Below are positions 5,088-8,376 of a DNA stretch of 10,443 bases, piece by piece. The number at the start of each line of letters is the position of its first letter. The stretch's first letter is position 1. The DNA is from Candidatus Cloacimonadota bacterium. GTDB lineage: Bacteria > Cloacimonadota > Cloacimonadia > Cloacimonadales > TCS61. Position numbers and translations under genes: made by a program. The DNA lies in NCBI GenBank assembly GCA_030445745.1, contig JASUTE010000035.1, positions 1-10,443 of the forward strand, given 5' to 3'. Under the pieces are notes generated by a model. It searched no databases. It was not told where the DNA came from and worked only from the letters and a program-made list of their open reading frames with translations.

Positions 5088-5912
5088 TCATAATCCCAGA
5101 ATTTCTCTGGTTTGTTGTGGTGTAGCCAGCGGACGTCCATAGTCTTTTGCCATACGGGCAATACGAGCTACAAGCTGCTCGTTGCTTTTGGCCAGTTCAC
5201 CTTTATGATAGAAAATATTGTCTTCAAAACCAACCCTGATATGTCCGCCCATTGCCAAGGCAATAGTTGAACACGGCATATGCCAGCGTCCAATCCCGGC
5301 AATTCCCCAGGTAGCAGTTGGAATTTCTTCTTGCAAATGCTCAGCCATGTAGAGTACATTTTTGGGTTTACCACTCATACCACCGGGAACTCCCAGTACA
5401 AACTGCACATGCAGCGGAGTATGAGTAATATGACCCTTTTTCACCAATTTTGCTACCGAGTCTATCATACCAGATTCGTATACTTCTATTTCAGGTGCTA
5501 CATTTTCTGCTTTGAATTTTTCTGCCAGTCGTATAATATCTTTGGGTTCATTGATAAAAACCTGATCACCAAAGTTAAGCGTACCAGCATTTAGTGTAGC
5601 CATATCTGGTTTCAATTGCAAAGGTGCCATTCGTTCTTCGAAAGGAGCACCTACGGCACCACCAGTACTAATTTGGATCACCATTTCCGGTACAGCTTTA
5701 CGAATTTTTGTAATGGCTTCTTCAAAACGTTCCAAGCGCTGAGATGGTCTGCCATCATCTTCGCGTACATGCAAATGCAACACTCTGGAACCAGCTTCAA
5801 AGCAGGCTTTAGCACATGCTGCTTGCTCATTTGGTGTAATAGGCAGATTAGGCTGATATTCACGCGTAGTTTCGGCGCCAGTAAGTGCTGTTGTAATAAT
5901 TAGTGGTTTCAT
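5088..5912 (-). CDS. kce: 3-keto-5-aminohexanoate cleavage enzyme (BKACE family)
   Basis: This Zn-dependent enzyme of lysine fermentation condenses 3-keto-5-aminohexanoate with acetyl-CoA to give L-3-aminobutyryl-CoA and acetoacetate. The 274-aa TIM-barrel protein (family DUF849/BKACE) has zinc ligands H46 and H48 (VLHLHVRE) and E230 (VGFED). It also keeps R226, D231 and S82 (QISTGGAVG), plus family segments [12 protein letters not shown] (105-116), EVYESGM (143-149), [13 protein letters not shown] (171-183) and GIGRWHMP (206-213). These residues and numbering match, as I recall them, the structurally characterised Kce of Ca. Cloacimonas acidaminovorans, which makes true Kce specificity likelier than another beta-keto acid within this diverse family. 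It begins 8 bp after the aminotransferase stop. The GGAGG ribosome site overlaps that gap, so the two are probably coupled. Last gene before the terminator at 5041-5074. Confidence 0.93.
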
Positions 5913-5920
5913 CTACCCTC

Positions 5921-7168
5921 CTATTTCAACAGTTTTTTTACTTCTGCCAAAGCTTCTTTTATGGCTGTAGCTGCCTGCTGTAAATCGGCTTCTGTATGAC
6001 GATATGCCACATAACCATGATGATATGGCTGCAGGAAAACACCACGACGTATAACCTGAGTATAAAATTCTACACGCAATTTTTTGTATAGTTTTTCTTC
6101 ATCTTTGGGAAAGGTGATGTATGGCATCAACGGAGCACCACTAAACTGGCAAGGTACTCCGCTTTCATCTACTATTTTTTGTACTTCATTACAGAATTTT
6201 TCACCTTTTTCCCAAAGTTTATCTAAAATATTATCACGTTCCATTATCTCGATAGTTTTAAGCGCAGCTACTTGTTCCAAGCTGTTTGGGAAGAAAGTAG
6301 AACTAATGAACACACGTTCTTCTGCTTCGTCCATTATCTCTTTTTTCCCTACCACAGCACTAATTGGATAACCATTGGCCATTGCTTTTCCAAATACAGA
6401 AAGATGCGGAGTTACACCATATTTGGCCTGAGCTCCACCTAAACTATAGCGAAATCCGCTACGAATTTCATCGAAAATAAGCACAGCACCATATTTTTCA
6501 GCGATCTTTTTCACAGCTTCCAAATAACCCGGTTTAGGTTCTTGCACAGGGTGTGCCAAAGGATGACCTACTGGAGTAATGATGATAGCCGCCATGTCAT
6601 CACCATGCACTTTCATCAAATCTTCCAAAGCATTTAAATCGTTATATGGGAAAGCAAAAACATCTTCCCACAATTTTTGAGGAATGCCCTCTTTTACTTC
6701 CACACACCAATCGTGCCAACCATGATAACCGCAACGAGCAATTTTTAGTTTTTTGGTGTAGGAACGTGCGATGCGAATTGCAGTTGTGGTAGCATCAGAA
6801 CCGGTTTTCACAAACAAGCATTTTTCAGCTGAAGGAATAAGCTCTATCAGTTTTTTAGCCAGTTTATTCTGAACCGGCTGGGTTAAAGACATACAAAAAC
6901 CATCTTCACGAATTTTCTGCACAACTGCATCATCGATCTCTTTTTCTTTATGGCCAAGTATGATGGGACCGTAGGCACAGAGCATATCTACGTACTCGTT
7001 GCCATCCACATCTATCACATGGCCACCTTCTGCTTTCTGGAAAAATATGGGATATTCGCCAGGAACAAAATTGTAGGGACGTCTTATCCCCAAGGTAGCT
7101 CCCGGAATCAATTCCATTGCTTCTTTATATAATTTTTCTGAGTTCTTTAGTTTTAATTTTTCAGACAT
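5921..7168 (-). CDS. Class III PLP aminotransferase, glutamate-1-semialdehyde-aminomutase-like (possible beta-amino acid transaminase)
   Basis: This is a 415-aa fold-type I PLP enzyme. Visible sites are the PLP phosphate loop KTGSDATT (121-128, in place of NSGTEA), the aromatic ring-stacking region GYHGWHDW (147-154), IFDEIRSGFR (231-240; D233 contacts the pyridine nitrogen) and VFGKAMANGYP (258-268; K261 forms the Schiff base). Overall it resembles HemL, but the altered phosphate loop and the absence of any haem-synthesis neighbour argue against that role. The start is ATG at 7166-7168: AGGAGAG lies just before it, over the thiolase stop, 11 bp away. A frame-open upstream extension would run into the thiolase gene without its own ribosome site. 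Because it sits between thiolase and kce, a beta-amino acid such as 3,5-diaminohexanoate, or a downstream 3-amino acid, is a reasonable substrate guess. That substrate is inference only. Confidence 0.85.
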   Translation of the reverse strand: MSEKLKLKNSEKLYKEAMELIPGATLGIRRPYNFVPGEYPIFFQKAEGGHVIDVDGNEYVDMLCAYGPIILGHKEKEIDDAVVQKIREDGFCMSLTQPVQNKLAKKLIELIPSAEKCLFVKTGSDATTTAIRIARSYTKKLKIARCGYHGWHDWCVEVKEGIPQKLWEDVFAFPYNDLNALEDLMKVHGDDMAAIIITPVGHPLAHPVQEPKPGYLEAVKKIAEKYGAVLIFDEIRSGFRYSLGGAQAKYGVTPHLSVFGKAMANGYPISAVVGKKEIMDEAEERVFISSTFFPNSLEQVAALKTIEIMERDNILDKLWEKGEKFCNEVQKIVDESGVPCQFSGAPLMPYITFPKDEEKLYKKLRVEFYTQVIRRGVFLQPYHHGYVAYRHTEADLQQAATAIKEALAEVKKLLK

Positions 7169-7171
7169 GAG

Positions 7172-7180
7172 CTCTCCTTT
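7172..7180 (-). promoter_or_regulatory. Ribosome binding site deciding the aminotransferase start
   Basis: On the minus strand AAAGGAGAG spans 7180-7172. Its GGAG core ends 5 nt before the ATG at 7168 and overlaps the last base of the thiolase stop codon. This fixes the start at 7168 rather than an in-frame ATG 19 codons upstream. Confidence 0.8.
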
Positions 7181-8376
7181 TACATTTCGTACAAGCTGGT
7201 GATGCCCATACCGCCGCCAATACAAAGCGAGGCTAGACCTTTTTTCACACCACGTTTTTTCATTTCGTGCAACAATGTTACCACGATGCGTGTTCCGCTA
7301 CAACCGATGGGATGTCCCAAAGCTATAGCGCCACCATTCACATTAATTATATCCAAATTAGGTTTACCAACACCTTCTTCTTCCAAGCCTTTAAACACAG
7401 CTAAAGATTGAGCAGCAAAAGCTTCGTTTAATTCTATCAACTGGATATCATCCCATTTCCAACCAGATTTTTTAAGAGCTTTTTTTATGGAAGGAACTGG
7501 CCCATAACCCATAATAGAAGGATCTACACCAGCGGAAGCATAATTTACCAAAGTGGCCAGTGGCTCAATTCCCAATGCTTTTGCCTTTTCTTCGCTGAGC
7601 AAAATCACAGAGGCTGCTCCATCGTTTATACCGGAAGAATTAGCTGCTGTAACACGACCATCTTTCTTGAAGGCAGCACGCAATTTGCTAATACTTTCGG
7701 CTGTTACACCAGCACGTGGAAATTCATCTTTATTCACTATAATAGGTTCTTTTTTGCGCTGTGGAACTGGGATCGGTACTATTTCATCTTGGAATTTATC
7801 GTTGTTCATTGCTGCTTCGCATCTATTTTGGCTGGTAGCAGCAAATTCATCCATCTCTTGGCGAGTAATATTGAATTTATCAGCTAAATTTTCGGCAGTA
7901 ACGCCCATATGATAACCATTGAAAATCTCCCAAAGACCATCTTGTATCATTAAGTCAACCAGTTTGGCATTACCCATACGTGCTCCCCAACGGGCTTTTG
8001 GCATGGCATAAGGTATCTGGCTCATATTCTCGGTTCCGCCAGCTACTATGATATCGGCATCACCCATGGCTATCATAGCTGCACCTAACGTAATGGCTTT
8101 CATACCTGAACCGCAAACTTTGTTAACAGTAAAAGTGGGAACCGTTTCAGGAATACCTGCCCCTAAAGAAATTTGACGTGACACATTTTGCCCTAAACCA
8201 GCTCCAACCACGTTTCCCATGATCACTTCGTCTATCATCTCGGGTTTAATACCAGTTTCCTTTAAACCAGCTTTTACAACATGCACACCTAAATCGACAG
8301 CAGAAACTTTTTTAAAAGCTCCACCAAAACTACCGATAGGACTTCTAAGTGCAGATGCTACTACTACTTTTTTCAT
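7180..8376 (-). CDS. atoB: Acetyl-CoA C-acetyltransferase (acetoacetyl-CoA thiolase)
   Basis: The enzyme reversibly cleaves acetoacetyl-CoA with CoA into two acetyl-CoA. The 398-aa product is a complete thiolase: nucleophile C88 in VNKVCGSGMKA, GGTENMS (113-119), YHMGVTAE (155-162) as in acetoacetyl-CoA-type thiolases, NEAFA (317-321), GHPIGCSG with H355 (354-361), and C385 in CIGGGMG. The start is ATG at 8374-8376, preceded by GGAGGAG. An in-frame GTG at 8386-8388 would begin inside that ribosome site and is rejected. It is first in the thiolase-aminotransferase-kce operon and would use acetoacetyl-CoA made from the acetoacetate released by Kce, once CoA is transferred. No AtoDA-type CoA transferase is in this window. 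hslO ends 59 nt upstream on the same strand, with no clear terminator between them. Confidence 0.95.
   Translation of the reverse strand: MKKVVVASALRSPIGSFGGAFKKVSAVDLGVHVVKAGLKETGIKPEMIDEVIMGNVVGAGLGQNVSRQISLGAGIPETVPTFTVNKVCGSGMKAITLGAAMIAMGDADIIVAGGTENMSQIPYAMPKARWGARMGNAKLVDLMIQDGLWEIFNGYHMGVTAENLADKFNITRQEMDEFAATSQNRCEAAMNNDKFQDEIVPIPVPQRKKEPIIVNKDEFPRAGVTAESISKLRAAFKKDGRVTAANSSGINDGAASVILLSEEKAKALGIEPLATLVNYASAGVDPSIMGYGPVPSIKKALKKSGWKWDDIQLIELNEAFAAQSLAVFKGLEEEGVGKPNLDIINVNGGAIALGHPIGCSGTRIVVTLLHEMKKRGVKKGLASLCIGGGMGITSLYEM

Follow-up and report, generated by a model that had tools for sequence, protein, structure and literature searches.

A transaminase variant of lysine fermentation was described in 2011 by Perret et al. 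in Ca. Cloacamonas acidaminovorans, a bacterium without kal in which a HemL-like class III aminotransferase gene adjoins the acetoacetyl-CoA thiolase gene (CLOAM0809/0810; PMC3149608). The purified aminotransferase converted 3-aminobutyryl-CoA and 2-oxoglutarate to acetoacetyl-CoA and glutamate with a Km of 4.3 µM for the CoA ester and was named Kat, for 3-aminobutyryl-CoA:2-oxoglutarate aminotransferase. Kat was inactive on free 3-aminobutyrate, beta-homoleucine, and beta-phenylalanine, indicating that a thioester is required, and the NAC esters of beta-homoleucine and beta-phenylalanine were also converted in vitro (PMC3149608). A Kat from a digester Bacteroidetes was assayed as well and reached 84% of the rate of the Ca. 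Cloacamonas acidaminovorans enzyme, with about 65% identity between the two assayed subgroups. Perret et al. doubted that the function could be transferred to a 60% identical protein from a genome lacking lysine-fermentation genes, and they left unexplained why C. acidaminovorans possesses an acyl-CoA dehydrogenase but no crotonase or 3-hydroxybutyryl-CoA dehydrogenase (PMC3149608). Our literature search for Kat in Cloacimonadota beyond this work found no paper.

Here, we analyzed a stretch of DNA (the window) that constitutes an entire contig (C23) of 10,443 bases in a Cloacimonadota genome of 2.04 Mb, which is divided into 38 contigs and 99.3% complete. We consider it very probable (about 95%) that three genes in the window are thl-kat-kce and that their products catalyze late steps of lysine fermentation by the Kat variant in this bacterium. 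The original prediction for this locus had also proposed a transaminase variant of lysine fermentation; a class III enzyme of the HemL branch does accompany Kce, but the variant itself had already been published (PMC3149608).

Organization of the three-gene array

The window ORFs, Pfam matches, and hairpin fold confirmed the predicted minus-strand array of three genes with 8- to 11-bp gaps and one terminator (Table 1). The thiolase and aminotransferase genes are separated by 11 bases and the aminotransferase and Kce genes by 8 bases, and a purine-rich, Shine-Dalgarno-like stretch precedes the ATG of each of the three genes. The hairpin consists of an 11-pair stem with 7 G-C pairs and a 4-base loop followed by a T-rich tail, and its fold scored z = -6.3 relative to shuffled sequences.

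Table 1. Positions of the array genes and the hairpin in the window
Feature	Position	Strand	Length	Remarks
Acetoacetyl-CoA thiolase (acetyl-CoA C-acetyltransferase), thl	7180..8376	-	398 aa	Operon gene 1; PF00108/PF02803
kat, predicted 3-aminobutyryl-CoA:2-oxoglutarate aminotransferase	5921..7168	-	415 aa	Class III, PLP-dependent; PF00202 (Aminotran_3)
Kce	5088..5912	-	274 aa	PF05853 (BKACE)
Intrinsic terminator-like hairpin	5049..5074	-		13 bases past the kce stop codon

The thiolase matched TIGR01930 at 488 bits, over the cut-off, and is 71% identical to the thiolase encoded next to kat in a second genome, G001, which belongs to the same order as the window genome. Kce aligned across its whole length with PDB entry 2Y7D at 75% identity (477 bits) and scored 367 bits against NF052387, slightly below the cut-off of 382. 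Elsewhere in the window, we observed a protein with an IS200-like Y1 transposase domain (PF01797) at positions 9707 to 10243, near the right end of the contig, and two overlapping ORFs (1394 to 2689 and 2668 to 3390) without a Pfam match, whose N termini appear to be secreted or lipoprotein-like.

Identity of the aminotransferase

The Kce of G001 is 100% identical to the aligned sequence of 2Y7D. We take 2Y7D to be the Kce of Cloacimonas acidaminovorans, and this identity suggests that G001 is the genome of Ca. Cloacamonas acidaminovorans. The kat gene of G001 adjoins a thiolase gene, matching the published arrangement. We found the window aminotransferase to be 66.2% identical to G001 Kat over 414 residues (628 bits), which is close to the ~65% published for the gap between the two assayed Kat subgroups. 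The closest Kat among named records belongs to a Cloacimonadota metagenome-assembled genome (MAG), at 80%. In an alignment of 32 Kat sequences, D233 and K261 are invariant, and these are presumably the residues that hold PLP in the class III fold. In addition to its full-length similarity of about 65% to a characterized Kat, the window enzyme groups apart from HemL, and its genome contains kamA, kamDE, kdd, and kce without a detectable Kal. The window genome thereby carries lysine-fermentation genes, unlike that of the 60% identical protein doubted by Perret et al. These findings strongly suggest that the window aminotransferase is a Kat, with function transferred at 66% identity and activity predicted from the assayed orthologues.

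With HemL (glutamate-1-semialdehyde 2,1-aminomutase), the window enzyme shares the class III PLP fold and catalytic residues, and its best NCBIfam matches were HemL models, with E values down to 2e-86. A HemL of tetrapyrrole synthesis that lies in the operon by chance is nevertheless exceedingly improbable. The protein scored 271 bits with TIGR00713, whose cut-off is 527, and remained below all HemL cut-offs, no gene in the genome passes the TIGR00713 cut-off, and identity to three HemL structures is 32%. The gene context also differs from that of HemL, with linkage to lysine-fermentation genes conserved across many phyla. A firm placement with HemL, which the original prediction had named as evidence against itself, was not obtained: in a tree that included the second class III aminotransferase of the genome and left out the long-branch FumI, a supported branch parted the 32 Kat sequences from HemL and set the window enzyme apart. 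Since the NCBIfam library returned only sub-threshold matches to HemL and matches to other class III aminotransferases for the window Kat, enzymes of this type may often be misannotated as HemL.

Remaining steps of the pathway in the window genome

As originally noted, the window contains no gene for Kdd, Kal, or a Kam protein. Contig C18 instead carries kdd, kamA, kamD, and kamE together with atoD and atoA, and the first four all exceeded their NCBIfam cut-offs, including kdd at 235.6 bits versus a cut-off of 200 for NF052381. Two genes are located between kamA and kamD (L082:4817-7409), one of which is MutS-like by our own reading of the sequence; similar-looking genes (16635-19033) precede kamD in a Bacteroidales cluster, L012. 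We did not detect Kal in the window genome with NF052388 or with the Kal half of NF052389, a search that a Kal unlike NF052388 would escape. NF052388 did detect Kal in five other Cloacimonadota genomes, indicating that the model works in this phylum. A full kamA-kamDE-kdd-kce-kal cluster elsewhere was to have counted against the original prediction; of this cluster, kamA-kamDE-kdd is present on C18, but Kal was not found.

These results bear on the role that had been assigned to the aminotransferase, which was to make a beta-keto acid for Kce, either replacing Kdd or starting from another free beta-amino acid. The gene does adjoin kce, and the HemL-like branch also includes beta-transaminases, but we consider this role very unlikely. 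The presence of kdd alongside kamA, kamD, and kamE leaves Kal, not Kdd, as the missing enzyme. Furthermore, the characterized orthologue rejects free beta-amino acids and requires a thioester, its substrate being the 3-aminobutyryl-CoA that Kce produces (PMC3149608). In a PDB scan, scores were about 200 bits for the HemL-like set and 107 bits for the beta-transaminase 2yku; the match of the window Kat to G001 Kat reaches 628 bits. We infer that Kat works downstream of Kce, where it substitutes for Kal, so that the original prediction probably put the enzyme one step too early. The conversion of other beta-amino thioesters (NAC esters) by Kat in vitro would also fit a Kat relative whose substrate is another beta-amino acyl-CoA instead of 3-aminobutyryl-CoA. 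Against such a substrate, which we regard as highly improbable, the same genome has the full lysine route, and the adjoining Kce is 75% identical to the characterized Kce.

In the Kat route that we propose for this bacterium, KamA, KamDE, and Kdd would convert lysine to 3-keto-5-aminohexanoate, and Kce would then use this intermediate and acetyl-CoA to form acetoacetate and 3-aminobutyryl-CoA. Kat, in place of Kal, would convert 3-aminobutyryl-CoA and 2-oxoglutarate to acetoacetyl-CoA and glutamate, with the thiolase yielding two acetyl-CoA from acetoacetyl-CoA. Acetoacetate would be activated by AtoDA, and 2-oxoglutarate would be regenerated by glutamate dehydrogenase; the genome contains two genes of the glutamate dehydrogenase family that could recycle 2-oxoglutarate. 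Gene content, order, and homology were observed directly, and the enzyme activities in this scheme are predictions from characterized orthologues. The crotonase (PF00378) and 3-hydroxyacyl-CoA dehydrogenase (PF00725) families were not found in the window genome, and an acyl-CoA dehydrogenase is present (G000, L159). An acyl-CoA dehydrogenase without crotonase is a gap common to the window genome and C. acidaminovorans (PMC3149608). This combination, which also lacks 3-hydroxybutyryl-CoA dehydrogenase, may mean either that lysine is fermented to acetate only or that crotonyl-CoA forms by an unknown route.

Distribution of kat and comparison with described systems

Among 124 Cloacimonadota genomes, we detected kce in 57 and kat in 59, with both genes in 54 and either in 62 (Fisher p ~2e-25 for co-occurrence, uncorrected for kinship). 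Three genomes of the phylum contain kce without kat, and Kal is encoded in two of these (G104 and G105). Kal and Kat occur together in three genomes (G051, G102, and G103; loci L152, L155, and L153), suggesting that the two enzymes are not strictly exclusive. Within the family of the window genome (f1), only G068 among the other genomes listed has both kce and kat, and G067 has a partial kat, which suggests that the trait is patchy in this family.

We also examined kat neighborhoods at 80 loci from named genomes. Most Cloacimonadota loci have kat beside thl. Two loci (L025 and L030) have thl, kat, and kce in the same order as the window. In Bacteroidota, kat is found beside atoD, kce, kdd, kamA, kamD, and kamE, and in Elusimicrobiota and Bdellovibrionota beside kamD and kamE. 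Lysine-fermentation genes also neighbor kat in Myxococcota, Bipolaricaulota, and Lokiarchaeota or Harpocratesius. These Asgard clusters (L015:10001-21218, L036:10001-20643, and L038:10001-19867) contain kat, kce, kdd, kamA, and kamD, with kamE also present in L036 and L038; a literature search for lysine fermentation in Lokiarchaeota found no paper. Linkage of kat to lysine-fermentation genes in about seven phyla, versus the two phyla named for kat in the 2011 paper (PMC3149608), represents a modest gain in breadth. We tentatively raise the possibility, for now rather doubtful, that the Kat route is widespread among anaerobes, with complete clusters even in Asgard archaea, and that it leads from lysine to acetate only or through an unknown route to crotonyl-CoA.

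As a separate observation, the kat gene at L138 (G026:C73:12292-13530) has an in-frame TAG where all 32 compared Kat sequences have the tryptophan W154, which points to either a nonsense mutation or an error in the assembly. In L005 and L123, what looked like internal stop codons proved to sit at the natural C terminus.

The window offers one more, ordinary example of a pathway that has been assayed and known since 2011, to which it contributes a new sequence member. The closest described enzyme, the Kat of Perret et al., has 66% full-length identity to the window enzyme and is likewise encoded next to a thiolase, and its genome resembles the window genome in the presence of kamA, kamDE, kdd, and kce and the absence of Kal (PMC3149608). 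The two genomes differ in the placement of kce, which is about 130 kb from kat in G001 but directly follows kat in the window. The Bacteroidetes cluster also has kce directly after kat, and in the window the thiolase gene lies in front. With the classical lysine fermentation of Fusobacterium nucleatum and Clostridium (PMC3149608), the window genome shares the KamA, KamDE, Kdd, Kce, and thiolase steps. The classical route differs in that Kal removes ammonia to form crotonyl-CoA, whereas Kal was not found in the window genome and Kat appears in its place.
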